A stretch of 64,000 nucleotides of DNA from Enterobacter sp. RHBSTW-00994. GTDB lineage: Bacteria; Pseudomonadota; Gammaproteobacteria; Enterobacterales; Enterobacteriaceae. The notes below the pieces were generated by a model, which worked only from the letters and a program-made list of their open reading frames with translations, had not been told where the DNA came from and did not search any database. Positions 4,394 to 17,187 of the stretch are shown here, in pieces; position 1 is the stretch's first letter; each line of letters opens with the position of its first letter. Both the position numbers and the translations under genes were made by a program. The stretch lies in the NCBI RefSeq assembly GCF_013782625.1, contig NZ_CP056199.1, forward strand, positions 2,374,588 to 2,438,587, written 5' to 3'.

Positions 4394-6496
4394 TTAACTC
4401 TTCACTCGCCGCGCTATAATCTCATCCGCCACATTGCGTGGTGCTTCCGCGTAATGGTGGAACTCCATGCTGTAAGTCGCACGCCCTTGTGACATGGAGC
4501 GCAGCGTGGTGGCATAGCCAAACATCTCGGCCAGCGGGACATCGGCGCGAATAATTTGGCTGCCATACCGCTCTTCCATCCCCTGCACCATACCGCGACG
4601 GGAAGAGAGATCGCCCATGATATTCCCGGCGTACTCTTCCGGTGTTTCCACCTCCACATGCATGATCGGTTCGAGGATCGCCGGGTCAGCTTTACGCGCC
4701 CCCTCTTTAAAGCCAAAGATCGCCGCCATGCGGAAGGCCATTTCAGACGAGTCGACATCATGATACGAACCAAATGTCAGCGTCGCTTTCACATCAACAA
4801 CCGGATAACCCGCCAGCACACCTGTGTTCATCGCTTCGCGTAGCCCTTTTTCCACAGATGGAATGTACTCACGCGGAACCACACCGCCTTTGGTGGCATC
4901 TTCGAAAACAAAGCCACTCCCCGCCGCAAGCGGTTCAAGACTGAGGACAACGTGTCCGTATTGCCCTTTCCCGCCGGACTGACGAACAAATTTCCCTTCA
5001 ATGTCTTTCACGGCTTTGCGCAAGGTTTCACGGTAAGTCACCTGCGGACGTCCGATATTCGCCTCAACGCCAAACTCACGTTTCATGCGGTCAACAATGA
5101 TTTCCAGGTGCAGTTCGCCCATACCGGAAATAATCGTCTGGCCAGACTCTTCGTCAGTATGCAGACGGAATGACGGATCTTCCGCCGCCAGGCGCTGCAA
5201 CGCGATGCCCATTTTTTCCTGATCGGCCTTGGTTTTCGGCTCGATCGCCAGTGAAATAACCGGGTCCGGGAATTCCATTCTTTCGAGCGTAATCACGGCA
5301 TCCGGGTCGCAGAGCGTGTCACCCGTGGTGACATCTTTTAATCCTACACAGGCCGCGATATCGCCCGCCCGCAACTCGTCCACTTCATGACGATCGTTCG
5401 CGTGCATTTGCACAATACGGCCAATGCGCTCTTTCTTGCCCTTCACCGGGTTATAAACCGCATCGCCTTTTTTCAGCACGCCGGAATAGACGCGGATAAA
5501 GGTCAACTGGCCGACATACGGGTCAGTCATCAGTTTGAACGCCAGCGCGGAGAACGGCTCGTCATCAGAGGGATGTCGTTCTGCATGCTGGCCTTTTTCA
5601 TCCAGGCCATCAATCGCAGGCACGTCCAGTGGCGACGGCATCAGCTCGACAACAGCATCGAGCATGCGCTGTACCCCTTTGTTTTTAAAGGCACTGCCGC
5701 ACAACATCGGCTGGATCTCCCCCGCAATAGTACGGATACGTAACCCCTTGATGATTTCAGCTTCATCAAGTTCGCCCGTTTCCAGATACTTATCCATTAG
5801 CTCGTCACTGGCTTCAGCGGCGGCTGACACCATTTTCTCGCGCCAGGTTTGCGCCGTCCTCAGCAGGTCATCCGGAACGGGACCGTAACTGAAGGTCATC
5901 CCCTGGGTTGCGTCGTCCCACAAAATGGCGCGCATTTTAATGAGATCAACCACACCGGTGAAATGTTCTTCTGCACCGACCGGGATCACAATCGGAACCG
6001 GGTTCGCTTTCAGACGGTCCTGCATCATCTGCACTACACGGAAGAAATCAGCCCCCGGGCGGTCCATTTTGTTGACGAAAGCCAGACGTGGCACATGGTA
6101 TTTGTTGGCCTGCCGCCACACAGTTTCCGATTGCGGCTGTACGCCACCAACCGAGTCATACACCATCACTGCGCCGTCAAGCACACGCATGGAACGTTCC
6201 ACTTCAATGGTGAAATCCACGTGCCCTGGGGTGTCGATGATATTGATCCGGTGCGGTTCAAAACCTCTGTCCATACCCGGCCAGAAACAGCTCACGGCAG
6301 CAGACGTGATAGTGATCCCGCGCTCCTGCTCCTGCGCCATCCAGTCCGTTGTTGCCGCGCCATCGTGGACTTCACCCAGTTTGTGGCTCATACCGGTGTA
6401 AAACAGGATGCGCTCAGTGGTGGTCGTTTTACCGGCATCGATATGCGCGGAGATACCGATGTTGCGATAACGTTCGAGAGGGATGGGTCGGGGCAT
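4394..6496 (-). CDS. Second elongation factor G (EF-G paralogue outside the str operon)
   Basis: A 700-residue, full-length EF-G. GTPase motifs are intact: AHIDAGKT (17-24), RGITIT (59-64), DTPGH (88-92) and NKMD (142-145), and domains II-V follow in the normal order to the C-terminus. By eye it is near 60 % identical to E. coli EF-G, too different to be a recent copy. EF-G drives translocation and, with RRF, ribosome recycling. The canonical fusA sits in rpsL-rpsG-fusA-tuf; here the gene stands alone, so it is an additional EF-G. It is divergent from an ArsR-type regulator gene, which might control it. Whether it is a housekeeping spare, a stress form or a fusidic-acid-tolerant form cannot be told from sequence. 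Confidence 0.9.
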
Positions 6497-7012: not shown

Positions 7013-7417
7013 TCAGGCAGATTCAGGATCCAGAAGCGACGTTCCATAAGAATTGTCGACGGTACAGCGCCAGCGGTTGTCATGTTCTTGTCGAAAGACG
7101 TAGGTTGCCCGGCGCGTTGTCTCTGCCATCCCACCCTGACCATCAGGAAAACGCAGCAACGTTTCCATAATCACCAGCGCATTCCCTCCACCTTCGATAA
7201 TCTGCATTTCGCCCTGCTCAACAACCAACTGCCCCTGAAAATAATCAGAAATGGCCATAAAAGCGTTGCGAATATTCTCTTTTCCGGTCGCAATCATGCC
7301 GGGCTTAATCACCAGCGCGGCATCTTCAGCATAGTGATCCATCAGCGCATCATAATCTTTTGCTGAGATCGCCCGGTCACATGATTCAATAATGTGTCGT
7401 ATCGGATGCAACGGCAT
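7013..7417 (-). CDS. NTF2-like (SnoaL/DUF4440-type) small protein
   Basis: A 134-residue protein with the cone-shaped NTF2-like fold: an N-terminal helix (IIESCDRAISAKDYDALMDHYAED) and beta strands ending in WRCTVDNSYGTSLLDPESA. Families with this fold include ketosteroid-isomerase-like enzymes and non-catalytic pocket proteins, so no reaction is assigned. I start at ATG 7417, which has AGGAG at good spacing; a start 12 codons upstream is possible but lacks one. It sits 51 bases beyond the ArgP-like gene in the same direction and may be co-transcribed with it. Confidence 0.7.
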   Translation of the reverse strand: MPLHPIRHIIESCDRAISAKDYDALMDHYAEDAALVIKPGMIATGKENIRNAFMAISDYFQGQLVVEQGEMQIIEGGGNALVIMETLLRFPDGQGGMAETTRRATYVFRQEHDNRWRCTVDNSYGTSLLDPESA

Positions 7418-7468
7418 CTGCGTTTCTCCTGTTAAGTACCCAACCCGCGCCAAAGACCGCTGGAGAGA

Positions 7469-8350
7469 TCATTCGCGAAGCGCTTCACGTGCAGCAACGT
7501 GAACACATTCACTAAGACGTTCTAACAAGGTCAATTTTAAACTCCATCGATGCCAATATAACCGGGTATCGACAGGATTACCCTCTGCTATTTCGACCAG
7601 TATTCCCTTATCCCGAAAAGGTTCAGAAAGGTGTTCGGGAAGCATCCCCCACCCCAGTCCGCGCAAAACTGCGTGAAGATAGGCCGATGTTGAGGGTATA
7701 TATTGTGACGGTGGCTCAATATCACACGATATAACCTTCCGGATGAATTTATTCTGAAGATCATCCTTGTGATTAAACATAATTACCGGTGCATTTTTCA
7801 GCGTTTTTTCAGAAATACCGTCGCGGAAATATTCCGCATAATAATCAACAGAAGCGTAGGCTTTATATCGCATGGTCCCCAGGTACTCAACTTTGCATCC
7901 CTGAACAAGGGTGGGATCGGCACTTACGGCAGCCATAACTTCGCCTTTTTGCAGCAAGGTTGCACTGTAATCCTGGTCTTCGATTCGCACATCAAAAACA
8001 ATGTTTTGCTCCCTGAATGCCGTATTTATTGCAGACAAGAACCAGCCATCGACTGAGTCCGCATTAACCGCAACTACCGCTTTTCCCTGATATTTTTTCT
8101 CCTGAACGGCGAAAAAATCTTTTTCCAGTAATTCTATTTTTTCAGCATATTGATACAGCTCCATGCCCGCCTGGCTGGGTTGACAGGGACTGCCCCTGAT
8201 AATTAATACCTGCCCAACCTCTTCTTCCAGCACCCGGATCCTCTGACTCACCGCTGAAGGCGTGATATGCAATTTTCGGGAGGCCAGTTCAAAACTCCCA
8301 CTCCGGATAATCGCCATAAACGTCTCTAAAAAAGAGTAATTGAGTTTCAT
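7469..8350 (-). CDS. LysR-family regulator, ArgP-like
   Basis: A 293-residue LysR-type regulator. The N-terminal helix-turn-helix (FELASRKLHITPSAVSQRIRVLEEEVGQ, about 20-47) and the VAVNADSVDGWFL segment resemble E. coli ArgP, which senses lysine/arginine and activates argO. It is not ArgP itself: similarity is partial and the locus differs. It is divergent from an arginase-like gene across 101 bases, the usual layout for a LysR regulator and its target. I infer that it controls that gene in response to a basic amino acid or related compound. Confidence 0.8.
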   Translation of the reverse strand: MKLNYSFLETFMAIIRSGSFELASRKLHITPSAVSQRIRVLEEEVGQVLIIRGSPCQPSQAGMELYQYAEKIELLEKDFFAVQEKKYQGKAVVAVNADSVDGWFLSAINTAFREQNIVFDVRIEDQDYSATLLQKGEVMAAVSADPTLVQGCKVEYLGTMRYKAYASVDYYAEYFRDGISEKTLKNAPVIMFNHKDDLQNKFIRKVISCDIEPPSQYIPSTSAYLHAVLRGLGWGMLPEHLSEPFRDKGILVEIAEGNPVDTRLYWHRWSLKLTLLERLSECVHVAAREALRE

Positions 8351-9294: not shown

Positions 9295-9324
9295 AAAAAA
9301 AAGACGACAGTGAGGGTGTCGTCT
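9295..9324 (-). terminator. Intrinsic terminator at the end of the Cfa-like operon
   Basis: Stem AGACGACA / TGTCGTCT (9302-9309 and 9317-9324) followed on the minus strand by a run of eight T. It lies 57 bases past the DUF523-DUF1722 stop and ends minus-strand transcription of the operon. The plus-strand arginase-like gene also ends nearby. Confidence 0.75.
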
Positions 9325-9380: not shown

Positions 9381-10340
9381 TTAATAAGCCATCAGGCGCA
9401 GGGCTAAATCCTCCGGGTAAGGGGAAAAATAGTTCTGCGTCTGCAAATACCGATCAGGATATTCCGCCAGATAATGTTTCAGCAGTGTCAACGGGGCAAG
9501 TATCGGTAACACCCCGGCGCGATAGTGGAGGATCACCTCACGCAGTTCGCCGCGCTGACGGGTATTTAGCTGGTCACGAAAGTAGCCCTGAATGTGCATC
9601 AGCACGTTCGTGTGGTTTTTCCGTGAGGCATTTTTTTTCAGGATCGTCATCAGCTTCTCGCGGTACGCCACGAAGAAAGCGTCCAGATCGTCCCATTCAT
9701 GTAACGAGGCGACAAAGGGGCCAATTTCACGGTAGCCAGCCTGGTGATGCGCCAGAAGCTGAAGCTTGTAACGGCTGTGGAAATCCAGCAACGCACGACG
9801 AGTCAGGCCGTTAGCCCGCAGCGAATTGAGTTCATGCAGGGCGAACACGCGTTCGACAAAGTTCTCCCGCAGTGCCGGATCGTTCAGGCGTCCATCCTCT
9901 TCAACAGGCAGCCACGGGTATTTCTCCAGTAATGACGCGGTAAAAATACCCACGCCCTCTTTTGGCCCACGATTGCCCTGCTCGTCGTACAGTCTCACGC
10001 GCTCCATGCCACAGCTAGGGGATTTGGCGCAGACGATAAAACCGGACAGACCGCCCAGTTGAGGAAGACAGGTGTCGATGAAAGTAGCCATCTTTTCGGT
10101 CATATCGTCGTTGGGCGTTTTACTAAAACGTATCCGGGTCTCCCCTTCGGGGGTTTGCACAAGGCGCAGTGCGGGCCGGGGAACAGGCAGACCAATGGAC
10201 ATCTCCGGACAAACCGGTTTGAACATCACCCATTGTGCCAGCCGGTCCATCACAAAGCTCATCCGTTTATGTCCACCGTCAAACCGCACAGCCGAACCAG
10301 TTAAACATCCGCTGATCCCAATAACAGGTTGAGTGTTCAT
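9381..10340 (-). CDS. DUF523-DUF1722 fusion protein (YbgA-like C-terminus)
   Basis: A 319-residue two-domain protein. DUF523 (about 1-150) has the conserved cysteine segments ISGCLTG and AKSPSCG. DUF1722 (about 190-310) corresponds to E. coli YbgA, whose gene lies next to the photolyase gene phr. No enzymatic activity is known to me for either domain. The start at 10340 has AGAGGA upstream; longer versions would run into the DUF3833 gene. It is the last gene of the operon. From memory, relatives occur near photolyase genes and in light or singlet-oxygen regulons (LitR, ChrR), often with the same companions as here. Confidence 0.8.
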   Translation of the reverse strand: MNTQPVIGISGCLTGSAVRFDGGHKRMSFVMDRLAQWVMFKPVCPEMSIGLPVPRPALRLVQTPEGETRIRFSKTPNDDMTEKMATFIDTCLPQLGGLSGFIVCAKSPSCGMERVRLYDEQGNRGPKEGVGIFTASLLEKYPWLPVEEDGRLNDPALRENFVERVFALHELNSLRANGLTRRALLDFHSRYKLQLLAHHQAGYREIGPFVASLHEWDDLDAFFVAYREKLMTILKKNASRKNHTNVLMHIQGYFRDQLNTRQRGELREVILHYRAGVLPILAPLTLLKHYLAEYPDRYLQTQNYFSPYPEDLALRLMAY

Positions 10341-10353
10341 GGCGCTATCCTCT

Positions 10354-10884
10354 TTACTGCTCTTTTCGGGTGAAGAAAAGCGTGACCGTTCCAACGGTAA
10401 CCTCAAATTTCTTCATCTCGGTTTTATTAAAAAGATGCGTGCCGTCTTGCAGATACATCCAGTCATCAAAATGCAAAAGCAAGGTGCTGCCGCTGGTGTT
10501 AATGTTCATGCTGTAGCGCCAGTTGAAGGCATTGCCCGCGGCCTGACCTGTCGCTACCCCCTCAATATCACTCGCCGTACCTTCGTAGCGATCGGCGCTG
10601 ATACGGCGGATGTACCACGTCCGCTGTTGTTTCTCGCCATCGTCATAGAGGAAGCGTTCGTTCAACGTCAGCGTATCGCCTACGACGTCGCCATTAATCT
10701 CGACATGGAAGCGACGCAGTTGTTTGCCGCTGCGACCCTGGACCATGCCCCACGCTTCCGTTTTCCCCTGGAAAAAATGGAAGATATCGAGTGTGGGCTG
10801 TTGGGGTCGGTAATCATTTATTTCCGCGCTACAGCCCACCAGCAACATCATGAGCGTCAGACCGAGTATCAGGATGCGTTTCAT
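10354..10884 (-). CDS. DUF3833 lipoprotein
   Basis: A 176-residue predicted lipoprotein: a basic-hydrophobic signal and lipobox LVGC with the acylated cysteine at residue 18. Residue 19 is Ser, so outer-membrane sorting is expected. The mature part is DUF3833 (beta-rich, with GKTEAWGMVQ and the NWRYSMNI/DDWMYLQDGT segments). Function is unknown; the domain recurs with Cfa-like and DUF1365 genes, suggesting a role in handling modified lipids in the envelope. The start overlaps the end of the preceding gene by four bases, indicating translational coupling. Confidence 0.8.
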   Translation of the reverse strand: MKRILILGLTLMMLLVGCSAEINDYRPQQPTLDIFHFFQGKTEAWGMVQGRSGKQLRRFHVEINGDVVGDTLTLNERFLYDDGEKQQRTWYIRRISADRYEGTASDIEGVATGQAAGNAFNWRYSMNINTSGSTLLLHFDDWMYLQDGTHLFNKTEMKKFEVTVGTVTLFFTRKEQ

Positions 10885-11405
10885 TTCCTGCCTCCCATTA
10901 ACTGCTGACGCAGATCAGGGTATGTAGTGCGTGGGCTAAGCCAGATCGCCAGAAATTGCGTGCTGAACGCTTCTGACTGACGAGGTCCCAGGCGGATAAA
11001 GTTTTTTTGCGCCGCAGATGCGCGATACCAGAACTGGCCTTGCTTATTTTCGAACACGAAGGCCAGTTGCGTGCCTGATGCCACATCAGGCCAAAGTGAC
11101 AGCAGCATGCGAAGCCACTGCTCGCTCTGCGGCTCACGCGCCAGAATGCCCTGCGCCTGCCACTGTTCACGGGTGGCATCGACCAGTGCCTCACGGTCGA
11201 TATTGCGTTGATAGCGAATGATCAGTGCCTGATCCTGCGAGGGACCGGTATATCGGCCATCTGGCGTACAAAGCTCAGAGGTGTAGAGGGTAAACGGCCC
11301 CCAGGTCAGCGTTGCATCGCCCACCTTTTGCCAGGTTAGCCAATCGTCGGCATGTACCGTCGCGATACCTGTGAGCCACAGCATCAGCAGTAATGAGGTT
11401 CTCAT
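10881..11405 (-). CDS. Secreted chalcone isomerase-like protein
   Basis: A 174-residue exported protein with a signal peptide ending at VHA (about residue 19). The mature part (KVGDATLTWGPFTLYTSELCTPDG, ALIIRYQRNIDREALVDATREQW, LGPRQSEAFSTQFLAIWLSP) resembles bacterial chalcone-isomerase-like proteins, whose eukaryotic relatives bind fatty acids. A fatty-acid-binding role would suit the operon but is inferred. It starts at ATG 11405 inside the last codons of the DUF2878 gene (four-base overlap); a much longer upstream frame is only a shadow of that gene. Confidence 0.72.
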   Translation of the reverse strand: MRTSLLLMLWLTGIATVHADDWLTWQKVGDATLTWGPFTLYTSELCTPDGRYTGPSQDQALIIRYQRNIDREALVDATREQWQAQGILAREPQSEQWLRMLLSLWPDVASGTQLAFVFENKQGQFWYRASAAQKNFIRLGPRQSEAFSTQFLAIWLSPRTTYPDLRQQLMGGRK

Positions 11406-11887
11406 TGCCGTTTCCCCATCAACATATGGAAAAACAGCATCAGAACCAGCCAGCCAGGGGACATCACGCTGACGACAATGACGCTCGGTTCCAGAAAGGT
11501 GATAGCGCCAAGATGGTGACCAATGACATACGCCACCGGTCCACCAACCGTTGCCAGCAGAGCCAGTATCCACCCAGGGATCGTCGCCGTGCAGGTCAGA
11601 CCTGTCCAGACAGTGGCAAACATTAACCACAAGGCCACCATCCACAATGGCAACAGCCCGTCGCCGTTGAAATCGATAAGCCCGGTCAGCACCCAGAATG
11701 CATCCAGTGTGCAGCCAGCAACGGCCAGCAATACTGCGTAAAGACGGTGTGCAGGTGACAGCATGATGCAGGCGAGGATAGCCAGGCCAAGCCATAAAAA
11801 CAGGCCACGTTCACGAAACAACACCACCAGCGTCCAGTAGAGATCGAACGCAACCGCCATCAGAAAAACCTGTACATAGCGCTTCAT
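11402..11887 (-). CDS. DUF2878 integral membrane protein
   Basis: A 161-residue protein made almost entirely of hydrophobic segments (about five), with the conserved GPVAYVIGHHLG stretch near residue 120. This is DUF2878, of unknown function. It overlaps the Cfa-like gene upstream and the chalcone isomerase-like gene downstream by four bases each, so its expression is tied to theirs. It could anchor the lipid-modifying enzymes at the inner membrane or move a lipid; neither is shown by the sequence. Confidence 0.78.
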   Translation of the reverse strand: MKRYVQVFLMAVAFDLYWTLVVLFRERGLFLWLGLAILACIMLSPAHRLYAVLLAVAGCTLDAFWVLTGLIDFNGDGLLPLWMVALWLMFATVWTGLTCTATIPGWILALLATVGGPVAYVIGHHLGAITFLEPSVIVVSVMSPGWLVLMLFFHMLMGKRQ

Positions 11888-13110
11888 ACACGTTCCGCCG
11901 TAAGCTGTACCACGCTGATGGTACGTGCGTTAAATCCGGCCTCGCAGTAACCAAAGTAGTAGAGCCACATTCTGCGGAAGCGGTCATCAAAGCCCAGTTT
12001 TTCAATATCCTGCCAGGCGTGAACAAAACGCTGCCGCCAGTGCGACAGTGTGCGGGCATAATCAGGTCCCATGTCAAACACGTTGCGAACGACAAAATCT
12101 GTATGACGGGTCATCAGATTGTTCATCGCTGTAATACTCGGCAAAAAACCGCCGGGGAAAATGTAGCGCTGGATAAAATCGACGCTCTTGCTGTAATCCC
12201 GGTAGCGCTGATCCTGGATGGTAATGGCCTGGATCGTCATTTTTCCACCTGAGCGAAGACGAGCCTGACAGGTACGGAAGAAAGCGGGTAAGTAACGTTT
12301 CCCAACGGCTTCAATCATCTCAACCGAAACCAGCTTGTCATACTCGCCCGTCAGATCACGGTAATCACATAACAGAACCTGCACCCTGTCCTGCAACCCC
12401 GACCGGGCGATCCGCTCGGTTGCCCACTGGTACTGCTCCTGCGACAACGTGGTGGTGGTAACACGACAGCCATAGTGACGGGCGGCGTACTCCGCCATCG
12501 CCCCCCAGCCCGTACCGATTTCCAGCAGATGATCGCTGGGTTTCAGTTCCAGTTGTTCGCACAGGCGAGACATTTTGGCCTGCTGAGCCAGACCAAGATC
12601 CTGTTCACCGTTGGAAAACAACGCGCTGGAATAGAGCAACTCTTCATCCAGAAAGTGCGAGTAAAACGCATTGCCCAGGTCATAGTGTGCGGCGATATTT
12701 TCCCGCGCCTGTACTCGGTGGTTTCGCCGCATCCAGTGACGTAAACGTTCAGCGGGATTCCCCAGCAAGCGAAAGCCACACTCCAGACGTCCCAGTACCG
12801 ATGAGTTTAACGCCACCATCTGCAACAGCGACGTAAGTTGATGTGTCTCCCACTCGCCGTCCATCCAGGCTTCGGCAGCAGCGAGGCTTCCGCCAGTGAG
12901 CAGACGCCAGTAAACCCCCGGCGAGACAATGCGAACCTCCGCACGCAGCTCGGCTGAGGTATCGCCAAAATGAAACACCTGCGCCCCATCACGAATGGTG
13001 AGTGAGCCTTCCTGAAGGCCGCTCAGCAGACGAAAAAGCAACCAGCGTGCAATACGAACGTTACGCGGAATATCGGGTTCAAGCGCAAAGGCAGGATCGG
13101 TCATGATCAT
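11884..13110 (-). CDS. Cyclopropane-fatty-acid-synthase-like SAM methyltransferase with altered active site
   Basis: A 408-residue homologue of Cfa. The SAM motif is LLEIGTGWG (195-203). Aligned by hand to E. coli Cfa, the five residues that hold the catalytic bicarbonate are C139->S162, E239->E267, H266->Q294, I268->I296 and Y317->Y351, so two of five are replaced. Cfa methylenates phospholipid acyl chains; relatives in furan- and methyl-branched-fatty-acid pathways methylate without closing the ring. Together with the FAD, DUF1365 and SDR partners this suggests an acyl-chain methyltransferase other than the housekeeping Cfa. It starts at ATG 13110, four bases inside the DUF1365 gene, behind GGAGTGA. 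Confidence 0.87.
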   Translation of the reverse strand: MIMTDPAFALEPDIPRNVRIARWLLFRLLSGLQEGSLTIRDGAQVFHFGDTSAELRAEVRIVSPGVYWRLLTGGSLAAAEAWMDGEWETHQLTSLLQMVALNSSVLGRLECGFRLLGNPAERLRHWMRRNHRVQARENIAAHYDLGNAFYSHFLDEELLYSSALFSNGEQDLGLAQQAKMSRLCEQLELKPSDHLLEIGTGWGAMAEYAARHYGCRVTTTTLSQEQYQWATERIARSGLQDRVQVLLCDYRDLTGEYDKLVSVEMIEAVGKRYLPAFFRTCQARLRSGGKMTIQAITIQDQRYRDYSKSVDFIQRYIFPGGFLPSITAMNNLMTRHTDFVVRNVFDMGPDYARTLSHWRQRFVHAWQDIEKLGFDDRFRRMWLYYFGYCEAGFNARTISVVQLTAERV

Positions 13111-13823
13111 TCACTCCTGCTAACGGTGTGGTTGTAAACAGGAACACGCTTGAGCCACAGTCGCAGCGCCTGCCAGTAAATGGCAAGCAGGGTTTTCAGT
13201 GTCATAAACGGAAGGCGACACAACAGCGACGTCAGTGATTTACGTGTCAGCGGCTCTCGCTTCAACGCCAGAGTGGCATCGAAAACTTTTGTGGTCTGGT
13301 GGTTTTCAATGTGCATATGCAGCGTTTTATCCGGGTTGTTAAAACGCCAGTGGTACACCATGTCCATCGGGTTAAAGGGGGATACATGTAAGGCTTTTTC
13401 CAGCGGATGCGCGGCCTGGCCGTCTACGGCATAGTAATGACGTTCATTCCACGGCGTATTCCTCACTTCCGCAAGCACCCAACGCAGAGTCTGGGTACGG
13501 TCATAGCAGTAGTAAAAATTGACCGGATTAAAATGGAACCCAAAGTAGCGCAACTGCGTCAGGAGCATGACGCGGCCATCAGGACGCTCACCGGTCAACG
13601 ACATAAGTTGATTGAGCACGGTGTCTTTAAGCGGTGTGCCCAACGGGTAATCTGCATCATAGAAAGCAGCGGCAGCAAAGCGGTTACGCCGGATACCCAC
13701 CGAAGGTAATGCCTCCAGCTCATCCAGATCGAGCCAGGCCATAAAAACGCTGTAGCGGAAAGTATGCGTTTTCGGCAACAGACGGCGGTGGCGTAGCACG
13801 CCATGGTAAAGGCAGCTATTCAT
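13107..13823 (-). CDS. DUF1365 protein
   Basis: A 238-residue cytoplasmic protein of the DUF1365 family, opening with YHGVLRHRRLLPKTHTFRY and carrying FHFNPVNFYYCYD, WNERHYY and HVSPFNPMDMVYHWRF, the histidine- and aromatic-rich signature of the family. The family is almost always found between a Cfa-like methyltransferase and an FAD amine-oxidase-like gene, exactly as here, and has been implicated in the same fatty-acid pathways. Its own reaction is not established. It overlaps its upstream neighbour by eight bases and its downstream neighbour by four. Confidence 0.85.
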   Translation of the reverse strand: MNSCLYHGVLRHRRLLPKTHTFRYSVFMAWLDLDELEALPSVGIRRNRFAAAAFYDADYPLGTPLKDTVLNQLMSLTGERPDGRVMLLTQLRYFGFHFNPVNFYYCYDRTQTLRWVLAEVRNTPWNERHYYAVDGQAAHPLEKALHVSPFNPMDMVYHWRFNNPDKTLHMHIENHQTTKVFDATLALKREPLTRKSLTSLLCRLPFMTLKTLLAIYWQALRLWLKRVPVYNHTVSRSE

Positions 13824-15084
13824 TTGCGTGACCCTCTCCGGCGGCGATCCCCTTCACCACATCCAGCGCGCTCCGCACCCCATCCTCATGAAAGCCGTTG
13901 TACCAGTAAGCGCCGCAGTACCAGCTTCGATGAAAACCGTTGATCTCGCTACGACGCGTCTGCGCCCGCCAGCTTTTAGGATTAAACAGCGGATGTTCAT
14001 AGACAAAGCGCTGCCAGACATAGCGTTCATCGACGGCGGTTTCCGGATTCAGGGTTACACAGAACAAGGGCGCATCGTGGGGTAACCCTTGTAAAATATT
14101 CATGTTGTAGGTCACACAGGCGCTGGCCTGATCCTGCTCGCTCAGGCGATAGTTCCAGCTTGCCCAGGCACGTTCACGCACCGGGAGCCAGCGTCGGTCG
14201 CCGTGTAAAACCACCTCATTACGCTGCCAGCCGATATCCCCCAGCACGTCGCGTTCGGCCTGGGTTGGCTCGTCAAGCAAAGCCAGAGCCTGCGCGGAGT
14301 GACAGGCGAAGATCACCTGGTCGAAAGTCTGCCCGGATGTTTCAAGCTGAACCTTTACGCCACCGTCATAGCGGATAACCTGCTGAACGGGTGTATTCAG
14401 GTGTAAGGTCAGACGATCGCCAAGCTGGGCCAGTATGGCGCGGATATACTCCCGCGAGCCGCCCGGCACGACGTACCACTGCGGGCGATGGGTAACATCC
14501 AGCAGACCATGATGCTCAAAAAAGCGTAAAAAAAGCGGCAGTGGAAAACGGCGCATCTCCCGTAGCGACGATGACCAGATAGCCGCGCCCATCGGTAGAA
14601 TGTAATGGCGTGCGAAGAACGGGCCGAAGCGGTGCTGTTCAAGGAAGGATTGCAGCGTGGCACTTGGGTCAATGTCGCCCCGCAGCGCCCTCTTCGCCAC
14701 GCGATTAAAGCGGACAATCTCTTTCAGTAGACACCAGAATTTAGGGTTCACCAGATTACGACGCTGCGCAAACAATGAGCCCAGGGTATGTCCGTTGTAC
14801 TCAAGACCGCTTTGCGGGTTATGCACTGAGAAACTCATCTGCGTTTTTTGCCCGCTGATGCCCAGTTCGCTTAACAAGCCCATAAAGCGCGGATAGGTGC
14901 GGTCGTTATAGACGATAAACCCAGTATCAATGGCATACGTTCCATCTGGCGTGGCAACATCCACCGTCGCGGTGTGTCCGCCTGCCGTGGCGCCGGCCTC
15001 GAAAAGCGTCACCTGATGGTGTCCGGCAAGCCGCCAGGCACAGGTCAGGCCGGCAATGCCGCTCCCGATAATCGCGATATTCAT
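13816..15084 (-). CDS. FAD-dependent amine-oxidase-like oxidoreductase
   Basis: A 422-residue flavoprotein of the NAD(P)-binding/amino-oxidase type. The FAD dinucleotide motif is GSGIAG (7-12), followed by LFEAGATAGGHT, the acidic residue and GG pair of this class. The family covers phytoene-desaturase-like and fatty-acyl desaturase or oxidase enzymes. In DUF1365-Cfa operons this partner is proposed to oxidise, desaturate or saturate the acyl chain before or after methylation. It overlaps the SDR gene by four bases at its start and the DUF1365 gene by eight at its end. Confidence 0.85.
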   Translation of the reverse strand: MNIAIIGSGIAGLTCAWRLAGHHQVTLFEAGATAGGHTATVDVATPDGTYAIDTGFIVYNDRTYPRFMGLLSELGISGQKTQMSFSVHNPQSGLEYNGHTLGSLFAQRRNLVNPKFWCLLKEIVRFNRVAKRALRGDIDPSATLQSFLEQHRFGPFFARHYILPMGAAIWSSSLREMRRFPLPLFLRFFEHHGLLDVTHRPQWYVVPGGSREYIRAILAQLGDRLTLHLNTPVQQVIRYDGGVKVQLETSGQTFDQVIFACHSAQALALLDEPTQAERDVLGDIGWQRNEVVLHGDRRWLPVRERAWASWNYRLSEQDQASACVTYNMNILQGLPHDAPLFCVTLNPETAVDERYVWQRFVYEHPLFNPKSWRAQTRRSEINGFHRSWYCGAYWYNGFHEDGVRSALDVVKGIAAGEGHANE

Positions 15085-15800
15085 GAGCGCACCATCCTGC
15101 GCAGTAAAATGTGTTGAACACTTGCCGGAAGTCCCGCCAGCAGGCGCATAACCACACTGAATCCGGTCGGGAACGCAATATGGTTTTTCCCTTTCGCTAC
15201 ACCACGGCGGATCGCCTTAACCGCATCCTCCACACTGACCTGACCGGGCATGGCAAAATCGTTTTTACGGGTCAACGGGGTATCCACAAAGCCCGGCGAG
15301 ACAACGGTGACAGCAATGCCTTTCGGCTCCCAGTCCAGCCGCAGGCAGTTGGCAAACCAGGTCAGCGCGGCCTTCGACGCACCATAAGCTTCAGCGCGCG
15401 GAAAATGCAGCCAGTGCGCCATCGAGCTGATCAGCACCACACGATTACCTGATACCAGCTGTGGCTGAAGTGCAGCCAGGCAGTTCACCGGCCCGAGGAA
15501 ATTGGTGGTCATCACCCTCTCCACCAGTGACGCGTCCACCCTGCCGTGATCCAGATATTCACAGGTTCCCGCGCACAGGATCACGAGATCGGCGCAGCAA
15601 TCCTCCAGCGCCTGGCGACAGACGTCCCTGTCAGTCATATCGAACAGGCGAACCGTGATGTTTGGGCTGTACTGGTGGAGTGCCTCCAGCCGGGCCGGGT
15701 CTCGCCCGCAGGCGATGACGTGACAACCGTCATCGGCCCAGGATTTCGCGAGCCCGGCCCCAATGCCGGAGCTTGCGCCAGTGATGAGGACAGTCATCAT
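15081..15800 (-). CDS. Short-chain dehydrogenase/reductase
   Basis: A 239-residue classical SDR. The NAD(P)-binding motif TGASSGIG is near residues 7-14, the NAG-equivalent is LCAGT, and the catalytic set is visible as the SSM serine and YGASK. Substrate unknown; in this operon a lipid hydroxy or keto intermediate is a reasonable guess. I start at ATG 15800, whose ATGA overlaps the stop of the NTF2-like gene; ATG 15797 is the alternative. A longer upstream frame has no support. Confidence 0.87.
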   Translation of the reverse strand: MMTVLITGASSGIGAGLAKSWADDGCHVIACGRDPARLEALHQYSPNITVRLFDMTDRDVCRQALEDCCADLVILCAGTCEYLDHGRVDASLVERVMTTNFLGPVNCLAALQPQLVSGNRVVLISSMAHWLHFPRAEAYGASKAALTWFANCLRLDWEPKGIAVTVVSPGFVDTPLTRKNDFAMPGQVSVEDAVKAIRRGVAKGKNHIAFPTGFSVVMRLLAGLPASVQHILLRRMVRS

Positions 15801-16231
15801 GCGCGCACCCTCCGTTTCACACCGCGAACCGCCCACCCCAACAGCGGAAGGTGTTCGTAGATCATCTCCCCGGCATCGTAGTAATCGCGCTGGCGAACAA
15901 TCAGGTTATTTTCAACCTCCACCATGGAACACCCCGGTAGCGTGAGCATCTCACCTGCGGCAATGCGTGGGTGCGACCAGTGCATGGTCCAGTTCACGGC
16001 AAAACGGTGTCCCTCACTCAGGGGAGAATCAATGGAAAAACGACACTGTTCCACGTTGGTCAGCAGGTGGGTGAAGTAGCGCTGGATCGCAAAAAGACCT
16101 TTGTGTTCGCCAAAAGGATCAATAAGCGACGCGTCCGCATCATAGAGCGCGACTAATGCCGACGGAGGCTGGTTATCCAGCCCGGCGTAGTAATCAACAA
16201 ACCGATCAATGACGGATGACATTGTGCTCAT
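15797..16231 (-). CDS. NTF2/SnoaL-like protein, first gene of the Cfa-like operon
   Basis: A 144-residue NTF2-like protein (VIDRFVDYYAGLDNQPPSALVALYDADASLIDPFG, then a strand-rich half with NWTMHWSHPRIAAGEMLTLPG cut here into parts). The fold forms a hydrophobic pocket used for isomerisation or ligand binding. It begins at ATG 16231 behind AGGTGAG; a start 13 codons earlier has no ribosome-binding site. As promoter-proximal gene of a nine-gene overlapping operon with SDR, FAD, DUF1365 and Cfa-like genes, it probably serves the same lipid pathway. The exact role is unknown. Confidence 0.78.
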   Translation of the reverse strand: MSTMSSVIDRFVDYYAGLDNQPPSALVALYDADASLIDPFGEHKGLFAIQRYFTHLLTNVEQCRFSIDSPLSEGHRFAVNWTMHWSHPRIAAGEMLTLPGCSMVEVENNLIVRQRDYYDAGEMIYEHLPLLGWAVRGVKRRVRA

Positions 16232-16275: not shown

Positions 16276-16305
16276 AAACTTACACAATTACATAAGTTTG
16301 TCCAA
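16276..16305 (-). promoter_or_regulatory. Candidate MerR-type operator/promoter of the Cfa-like operon
   Basis: A perfect inverted repeat AAACTTA-N10-TAAGTTT (16276-16299) lies 45 bases upstream of the first operon gene. On the minus strand it is directly preceded by TTGGAC (complement of 16300-16305), a possible -35 box, so the repeat would sit where MerR-family proteins bind, between -35 and -10. A further AAGTTT copy follows at 16304-16309. The MlrA-like regulator encoded just upstream is the obvious candidate to bind. Confidence 0.5.
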
Positions 16306-16386
16306 GTTTATGGCGAACTATTTTTTATAGTTATTAGTTTTCAACTTGTTATGTATTTATTTTTGGCGCGATCATTTTTGAAAATT

Positions 16387-16458: not shown

Positions 16459-17187
16459 TTACAGGGAGATAACGTCGAGGGAAATAACCTGCTGTTGCCA
16501 GAGATCTATCTGCTTTTTACGGGCTGCCGTCAGTTTGCCCGTTGTGACCAGCAACCATTTCCGTTCCGGGAAGATCTCCGGGGCCAGGGTGGCCGGTGGT
16601 ACGGGCAATACATCGATACGGTGGCCCTGACCAGTACGCTTAAGGGCTTCAAGCCAGATTTCACACGGATCGGTCAAATGCCAGCCGGTAATCAGGCAAT
16701 TATCGCCAGGCGCTCTTTTGTCGCCTTCGAGACAAAACGAGGTGTAGGAGATGATGATCCCATCAAGAATTTCACGCAGGGTCATCATTGCCGGAACATT
16801 AGCTGAGACAAGACTGCGCAGAGGGCGCAACACCTCCGTCACCAGTTCAGGACGCGGATATTCACGACCAGAGTCATAAATGAGCTGCCGCAGGGATTCG
16901 ATTTTCCCCTCTTTCAACCGCTGTAACATGCTCTCTTGCAAGGAGAGCCAGTTGTTAGTCCGTCGTGCACCAGGGCGAGCCAGCAGAGGCTTTACCTGGC
17001 TGACAGGAACCCCTTTTTTCACCCAGTCGAGAATTTTAAGCGCCTGCTGGATGTCGTCATCACTGTACAGGCGATGCCCACCATCGGTGCGCAGCGGTTT
17101 TAGCAGGCCGTAACGACGCTGCCAGGCGCGAAGTGTGGTCGCATTTATGCCGCAAAGCCGGGAAAATTCGCCGATGGAGTAAGACAT
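16459..17187 (-). CDS. MerR-family regulator, MlrA/BluR-like
   Basis: A 242-residue regulator. The N-terminal MerR helix-turn-helix (YSIGEFSRLCGINATTLRAW, then RRYGLLKPLRTDGGHRLYSD) is nearly that of E. coli MlrA, and the overall length matches (243). The C-terminal half corresponds to the cobalamin-binding region of CarH/LitR photoreceptors, but the B12 motif DxHxxG is absent; GWHLTDP is the nearest match. It is therefore probably not a B12 photosensor. I start at ATG 17187; a GTG three codons earlier is possible. The gene lies immediately upstream of the Cfa-like operon on the same strand, so the operon is its likeliest target. Confidence 0.83.
   Translation of the reverse strand: MSYSIGEFSRLCGINATTLRAWQRRYGLLKPLRTDGGHRLYSDDDIQQALKILDWVKKGVPVSQVKPLLARPGARRTNNWLSLQESMLQRLKEGKIESLRQLIYDSGREYPRPELVTEVLRPLRSLVSANVPAMMTLREILDGIIISYTSFCLEGDKRAPGDNCLITGWHLTDPCEIWLEALKRTGQGHRIDVLPVPPATLAPEIFPERKWLLVTTGKLTAARKKQIDLWQQQVISLDVISL

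Follow-up and report, generated by a model that had tools for sequence, protein, structure and literature searches.

Why does an enterobacterium that already has a canonical cyclopropane fatty acid synthase (Cfa) carry a second Cfa-like methyltransferase inside a long, tightly packed operon, and what might that operon make? We consider this question for a stretch of 64,000 nucleotides from Enterobacter sp. RHBSTW-00994 (contig NZ_CP056199.1, positions 2,374,588 to 2,438,587 of the forward strand), hereafter the window. The host genome comprises 4.89 Mb on a single contig, and two window proteins have their nearest named relatives within the Enterobacterales (Serratia, Cedecea, Pectobacterium, Lelliottia, Kosakonia and Klebsiella). 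Our preferred answer, with a probability of roughly 0.78, is that the nine genes are transcribed together as a unit for photo-oxidative protection, in which a furan-lipid arm and a tRNA 4-thiouridine (s4U) arm stand under the control of a MerR-type regulator and its operator; the unit would act against near-UV and blue light and singlet oxygen. The gene set itself is not new. It corresponds, in enterobacterial form, to the photo-oxidative-stress operon known from Pseudomonas, Shewanella, Vibrio and Rhodobacter, a known kind of furan-lipid operon that is here linked by an operator to the removal of tRNA thiouridine.

Recomputed open reading frames (ORFs) place the nine genes on the minus strand, reading leftwards from 16231 to 9381 in the order NTF2-like, short-chain dehydrogenase (SDR), FAD oxidoreductase, DUF1365, CMAS (the Cfa-like gene), DUF2878, chalcone-isomerase-like, DUF3833 and TudS-DUF1722 (Table 1). 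Successive junctions overlap by 4, 4, 8, 4, 4, 4 and 4 bases, and a 13-base gap separates DUF3833 from the last gene, in agreement with a preliminary description of this DNA, made from its letters alone, that had counted overlaps of 4-8 bases at seven of eight junctions. That description had left out the adjacent MerR gene (16459-17187) and the operator (16276-16309). The first gene has a longer frame reaching 16270, but the ATG at 16231 was preferred as its start because the Klebsiella pneumoniae annotation uses the equivalent ATG and congeners share it.

The Cfa-like enzyme of the window clusters with enzymes of the UfaM type and shows the same active-site pattern. Numbered after the host's own Cfa, in a scheme that we take to agree with that of E. 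coli Cfa, it carries Ser139, Glu236, Glu239, Gln266, Ile268 and Tyr317, against C139, G236, E239, H266, I268 and Y317 in the canonical enzyme, to which it is 34% identical. Glu236, Glu239 and Gln266 occur together in 153 of 166 CMAS proteins from the surveyed loci, a count that leaves out frames shorter than 330 aa or scoring below 150 bits; the host Cfa has Gly, Glu and His at these positions. The remaining proteins comprise ten of a second type (Glu236, His266, Phe268), two canonical enzymes and one aberrant protein with Glu236 and Gln266 but Gly239. Residue 139 does not belong to the UfaM signature, because it varies across the 153 proteins (Ser in 123, Ala in 18, Cys in 11, Gly in 1). The second type may be FufM-like, methylating the furan ring. 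It is encoded by the second CMAS gene, behind DUF2878, of loci with the order FAD-DUF1365-CFA-DUF2878-CFA (L145, L148, L152, L166, L186 and L187).

Structures and phylogeny point in the same direction. In alignments with Protein Data Bank (PDB) entries, the cyclopropane synthases 6bqc, 7qos, 5z9o and 1kp9 have Gly and His at positions 236 and 266, while the hydroxymycolate synthase Hma (2fk7) has Glu and Gln in these columns, as does the window enzyme. Hma, like UfaM-type enzymes, does not close a ring; PMC8708032 describes a carbocation that becomes a methyl alcohol, with Glu146, Glu149 and Ser178 holding water near bound fragments. We infer from the alignments that ring closure is probably prevented by the Glu/Gln pair, which would steer the cation elsewhere; the alignments do not include MmaA1, an enzyme with a product similar to UfaM's. 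A quick tree of 71 CMAS rows places the window enzyme inside a 61-row clade (Shimodaira-Hasegawa-like approximate likelihood ratio test, 97) that includes enzymes encoded next to photolyase genes in Rhodovulum strictum and Pseudorhodobacter ferrugineus together with FAD-DUF1365-CFA triplets, and leaves the host Cfa outside on a long branch. The window enzyme scores 287.6 bits against the CMAS family and 272.8 bits against the NCBIfam Cfa model, below its cut-off of 400; on this score, the tree position and Glu236/Gln266, a canonical cyclopropane synthase was rejected.

All three furan-pathway families, UfaM, UfaD and UfaO, are encoded together in the window. Its FAD protein is 37-41% identical to four counterparts in Rhodobacteraceae operons (E 5e-92 to 2e-101), with 37.8-40.8% (E 9e-94 to 2e-101) for those of Rhodobacter sp. 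SY28-1 (L259), Rhodobacter sp. NTK016B (L249) and Rhodovulum strictum (L230), and its DUF1365 protein shares 33-41% identity with Rhodobacteraceae counterparts. A Cfa homologue in third place of the R. sphaeroides operon was considered and rejected: only 18 of 80 named Rhodobacteraceae-type loci, some of them short, have a CMAS match above 200 bits. In Rhodovulum strictum and Pseudorhodobacter ferrugineus the CMAS gene adjoins a photolyase gene, a pair that we take to correspond to RSP2143/RSP2144. According to PMC7380195, R. sphaeroides UfaM (RSP2144), UfaD (RSP1091) and UfaO (RSP1090, a DUF1365 protein) convert cis-vaccenate through 11Me-12t-18:1 and 11Me-10t,12t-18:2 to the furan fatty acid (FuFA) 9M5-FuFA and suffice for its synthesis, as do the R. 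palustris homologues. In Halomonas, ufaD, ufaO and ufaM follow one another in a cluster, and the UfaM encoded there produces 11-methyloctadec-12-enoate in E. coli (PMC12089945). In the pathway that we propose, the window UfaM would methylate cis-vaccenoyl phospholipid at C11, the cation losing a proton to yield 11-methyl-12-trans-18:1 and no cyclopropane; the UfaD-like flavoenzyme would desaturate this to the 10t,12t diene; and the UfaO-like DUF1365 protein would introduce oxygen derived from O2, forming the scavenger 9M5-FuFA, a methyl furan fatty acid. The presence of these three protein types bears out both the fatty-acid modification system of the preliminary description and the kinship it had drawn to singlet-oxygen and furan genes of Rhodobacter and to light regulons; a purely lipid pathway does not stand, since its DUF523-DUF1722 gene is RudS.

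By its residues, the ninth gene is RudS, predicted to be a tRNA 4-thiouridine desulfidase and not a lipid gene. All seven residues checked are intact (Cys12, Cys44, Cys110, Glu46, Arg55, Ser107 and Ser109), and the cysteine numbers equal those of Salmonella RudS in PMC11417400. The same source names TudS-DUF1722 fusions RudS, reports that their expression in E. coli lowers tRNA s4U, places the E. cloacae rudS near a MerR gene and, citing other work, describes a drop of E. cloacae tRNA s4U after sublethal ultraviolet A (UVA). RudS of the window would convert 4-thiouridine at tRNA position 8 to uridine, removing a near-UV chromophore that crosslinks tRNA. In two congeners a small protein gene lies between MerR and rudS (L296 2888-3298, L297 2306-2716), an insertion that fits the E. 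cloacae locus-tag spacing told in PMC11417400.

In order to assess the conservation of the gene set, we searched for DUF1365, present in 166 of 295 order-level and 73 of 249 phylum-level genomes, and classified the ORFs around 100 and 40 of these loci, respectively, chosen by hand, using profiles grown from the window proteins (141 loci with the window). Genes sharing a strand block with DUF1365 were FAD (139), CFA (129), SDR (116), NTF2 (106), DUF2878 (86), DUF3833 (81), chalcone-isomerase-like (74), photolyase (64) and RudS (58). At the order level, 99 of 100 loci have FAD, DUF1365 and CFA within a single strand block, 63 have the full set of eight non-RudS genes together, and 54 have RudS with photolyase, the commonest full arrangement being RudS-(MerR)-photolyase-NTF2-SDR-FAD-DUF1365-CFA-DUF2878-CHI-DUF3833 (CHI, chalcone-isomerase-like). 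A chance neighbourhood is unlikely, because the host genome has a single DUF1365 match and a single DUF1722 match. Its sole photolyase is encoded elsewhere, outside the operon. Among the 141 loci only the window has RudS at the 3' end on the same strand; in two others (L123, L142) RudS lies downstream on the opposite strand. DUF1365 occurs in 7 of 23 own-family genomes among the matches listed, and a 1,940-base blastn query found, at the sensitivity used, no match in 5,426 E. coli genomes. The occurrence in an enterobacterium, remarked on in the preliminary description, is not singular: K. pneumoniae NZ_CP129856.1 has the identical ten genes in identical order.

The new element here is the operator, described by genome comparison. 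The 28-base pattern has one exact match in the host genome and one with 3 mismatches; only the exact match counts, because a reversed-pattern control also gave two matches within 3 mismatches. With at most 1 mismatch, the core TTGGACAA-N10-TTGTGTAAG has 29 matches in 26 of 295 family genomes (reversed control, 9), and the exact 17-base core has 15 matches in 13 genomes with 13 different spacers, where we estimate about 0.1 to be expected for 17 fixed bases across 295 genomes. All 15 exact matches precede either this operon with NTF2 as its first gene (8: the host G000, G188, G166, G776, G597, G668, G586 and G702) or rudS and rudS-like genes (7: G188, G166, G756, G797, G615, G727 and G752). In congeners G188 and G166 the site precedes an operon whose fetched surroundings contain no MerR gene, and a distant MerR-rudS locus carries the site as well. 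The operator arms are identical in K. pneumoniae NZ_CP129856.1 and CP125156.1. Since exact core sites precede the operon and rudS alike, one regulator probably serves both furan-lipid synthesis and s4U erasure; the shared operator suggests joint control, with the MerR protein as candidate regulator. A scan for sigma-70 promoters over the operator gave one weak match (1 against a shuffle mean of 0.7), and no -10 or -35 element is claimed.

The MerR protein has the MlrA helical and C-terminal Pfam domains, both over cut-off, and is 65-87% identical to six regulators that lie beside rudS or the operon and carry the operator (65-81% for those beside rudS genes, 87% for the one beside the G776 operon), against 42% for the other MlrA-like protein of its own genome. 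We propose that it would bind the upstream inverted repeat and control both arms. A LitR/CarH B12 photoreceptor was rejected, as no B12 domain is among the Pfam matches and the CarH model score is 59 bits against a cut-off of 400, and so was RpoE2/ChrR control, as the strict RpoE2 promoter TGATC-N18/19-CGTA has no match in the 350-base stretches upstream of those window genes that were tested; this pattern occurs in 8 of 141 loci, and in 18 of 10,240 shuffled tests. The host genome encodes one BLUF blue-light sensor protein outside the window (L302, G000:C1:2305168-2305440), and its partnership with the MlrA-type regulator is only a guess.

Several observations weigh against our reading. The MerR protein has no B12-binding domain among its Pfam matches and no known light sensor adjoins it. 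Four own-family genomes with the operon (G126, G198, G228, G276) have no site within 4 mismatches, and the MerR proteins leading two of the four site-less operons are just 40-42% identical to that of the window. Context was read for the 15 exact sites among the 29 matches; at one mismatch the reversed control still gave 9. Two of the seven rudS-side sites precede RudS-like proteins without the three cysteines, and s4U erasure is not the sole cargo of the operator because of these proteins. Among the matches listed, congener G248 has no DUF1365 match. The CMAS tree was built by a quick method and its outgroup branches are long, and its R. sphaeroides and R. palustris anchors were set by gene neighbourhood, not being RSP2144 and RPA2569 themselves. 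The two RudS-like proteins (L299 1588-2463 in G797; L304 2-847 in G727) have lost the three Fe-S cysteines and the catalytic Glu and keep a well-conserved DUF1722 half, like an intermediate towards E. coli YbgA.

The alternative that survives best, and which we nonetheless regard as doubtful, is that light plays no part: the MerR protein would answer stationary phase, cyclic di-GMP or host cues, and FuFA and RudS would serve against general oxidative stress. Its MlrA-type domains without a B12 domain would fit such a role, MlrA acting in curli control, as would the report that the Salmonella MlrA homologue MlrB represses csgD inside host cells (PMC13304067, PMC9275015); ORF319 is MlrB in the text of PMC13304067 and RudS in that of PMC11417400, and we do not rely on an equivalence with MlrB. 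The light induction of related gene sets speaks against it: in P. mendocina a nine-gene operon is light-induced, with phrB and ufaM up 25-33 fold (PMC9758184), and in V. cholerae, with ChrR and MerR regulators, the putative Cfa VC1122 is substantially up under blue light (PMC5241685). So do the frequent photolyase and RudS genes in the block (64 and 58 of 141 loci) and the lowered s4U of E. cloacae after UVA. As a separate observation, an amplicon spanning a Cfa-like gene end and a DUF3833 start was obtained from cDNA of inoculated pear shoots in a light-emitting diode study (PMC8465259), which suggests that Erwinia amylovora expresses a related operon in plants.

It is unlikely, in our view, that the furan or methyl-diene made by the trio is an intermediate of a lipid processed further, with extra steps or transport to the outer membrane supplied by the SDR, NTF2-like, chalcone-isomerase-fold, DUF2878 and DUF3833 proteins. 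The 63 order-level loci with all eight non-RudS genes would be in keeping with this, as would two envelope proteins whose folds hold hydrophobic ligands in other proteins. The DUF3833 model (mean predicted local distance difference test score, pLDDT, 92) is a ten-stranded barrel with 9 PDB matches at E <= 0.001 and query TM-scores of 0.46-0.64, among them a de novo barrel, a phycobiliprotein lyase and the fatty-acid-binding-protein-like Ycf58. The Chalcone_3 match of its neighbour reaches 19.8 bits, below the cut-off of 27, and the chalcone-isomerase fold was recognised by structure (mean pLDDT 85), with Foldseek matches to chalcone isomerases and the plant fatty-acid-binding proteins AtFAP1 and AtFAP3. 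These modelled folds fit hydrophobic-ligand binding and prove no role. Deletion of RSP1087, RSP1088 or RSP1089 left the R. sphaeroides fatty acid profile and FuFA unchanged in the account of PMC7380195, and some loci carry little beyond the FAD-DUF1365-CFA trio (e.g. L193, L194); both argue against further processing, and the deletions also lend no support to the accessory roles in our preferred reading, in which the five proteins would probably bind or process oxidised or furan acyl chains in the envelope, or to the handling of an acyl chain across the envelope that the preliminary description had suggested. A role of the Cfa-like enzyme as another cyclopropane synthase, or as the source of a different methyl-branched acid, with the operon yielding ordinary cyclopropane lipids under stress, would agree with its CMAS membership and with the cyclic fatty acids also detected in E. 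coli overexpressing Halomonas ufaM (PMC12089945), but is very improbable given the low Cfa score, the changes of Gly236 to Glu and His266 to Gln, the UfaD- and UfaO-type genes that accompany it in 99 of 100 order-level loci and the canonical Cfa already in the genome.

There are possible consequences for enterobacterial physiology. We put it at even odds that, in some Enterobacteriaceae, a B12-free MlrA-type MerR protein runs a two-target sunlight programme that erases s4U and turns membrane vaccenate into furan fatty acids. If so, operon-bearing strains would make furan lipids at the same time as they show the UVA-induced loss of tRNA thiouridine described in Enterobacter cloacae. The synthesis of furan fatty acids by bacteria has been described in alphaproteobacteria, plus one Halomonas UfaM; no report from Enterobacteriaceae was found in a literature search that covered subscription journals thinly and is weak evidence of absence. 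An operator common to a lipid pathway and a tRNA eraser offers a testable hypothesis for the sunlight adaptation of non-photosynthetic enterobacteria, and MlrA-type regulators adjoining rudS gain a candidate ancestral job. Elsewhere in the window, a 700-aa frame at 4394-6496 (minus strand) resembles a second elongation factor G from the start of its sequence; downstream of the operon, a small SnoaL/NTF2-like frame (7013-7453, minus strand) adjoins a LysR-type regulator (7469-8350, minus strand), both assigned by sight.

Table 1. Positions in the window of the operon, its regulator and flanking signals.
Feature	Position	Strand	Basis
MlrA/MlrB-like MerR regulator	16459..17187	-	MerR_1, MlrA_helical and MlrA_C (Pfam/NCBIfam)
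Candidate operator AAACTTGGACAA-N10-TTGTGTAAGTTT	16276..16309	-	Inverted repeat; 10/12 arm positions complementary
NTF2/SnoaL-like protein, first operon gene	15797..16231	-	Pfam match
Short-chain dehydrogenase (adh_short)	15081..15800	-	Family counterpart of SDR in Rhodobacteraceae operons
UfaD-like FAD desaturase (Amino_oxidase family)	13816..15084	-	Pfam match; similarity to Rhodobacteraceae operon proteins
UfaO-like DUF1365 protein (putative furan-forming oxygenase)	13107..13823	-	Pfam; sequence similarity
UfaM-type S-adenosylmethionine methyltransferase, Cfa-like (CMAS)	11884..13110	-	Active-site residues, tree, similarity
DUF2878 protein, hydrophobic, probably inner membrane (by sight)	11402..11887	-	Pfam match
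Chalcone-isomerase-fold protein, signal-peptide-like start (by sight), candidate fatty-acid binder	10881..11405	-	Model and Foldseek
DUF3833 lipoprotein, lipobox LVGC (by sight), ten-stranded barrel	10354..10884	-	Pfam and model
RudS (TudS-DUF1722; 2-thiour_desulf and DUF1722), predicted tRNA 4-thiouridine desulfidase	9381..10340	-	Pfam and residues
Terminator-like hairpin and T run, just past last gene	9302..9324	-	1 found; shuffles mean 0.0

Comparison with known systems sets the window operon among its relatives. With R. sphaeroides RSP1091-1087 and RSP2144 (PMC7380195) it has in common the UfaD-, UfaO- and UfaM-type enzymes and a photo-oxidative context, and SDR and DUF3833 genes occur in the fetched Rhodobacteraceae loci as in the window. 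In R. sphaeroides, however, UfaM is unlinked and control is by sigma-E/ChrR (an extracytoplasmic function sigma factor), whereas the window has a single operon beside a MerR-type regulator, with added RudS, NTF2, DUF2878 and chalcone-isomerase-fold genes; RudS is found in 0 of the 80 named Rhodobacteraceae-type loci. The P. mendocina light operon PME6650-6610, under class II LitR (PMC9758184), likewise consists of nine overlapping or close genes, SDR, FAD oxidoreductase and ufaM among them, and has phrB and a MerR-type regulator nearby. Its regulators PmlR1 and PmlR2 keep B12-binding_2, and PmlR2 works with a LOV protein, whereas the window regulator is MlrA-type; its operators, T(G/A)TACA and TGTACA, are unlike that of the window. 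In Shewanella, SO_3386-SO_3374 (PMC4336711), known as an RpoE2 operon with ybgA, phrB and cfa, shares with the window the union of a DUF1722 gene (ybgA) and cfa in one stress operon, but has an RpoE2 promoter and a photolyase, where the window operon has no photolyase and no match to the strict RpoE2 promoter. Closest are the K. pneumoniae loci, whose DUF1365 is 83% identical to that of the window and whose spacer and flanking genes differ: NZ_CP129856.1 has MerR in front and RudS last, and CP125156.1 has eight of the ten genes, with gaps at the MerR and CFA places in an incomplete gene table. With the RudS desulfidases of PMC11417400, finally, the window protein shares the domain fusion and every catalytic and cluster residue checked, and it differs from them in that its gene closes a furan-lipid operon.

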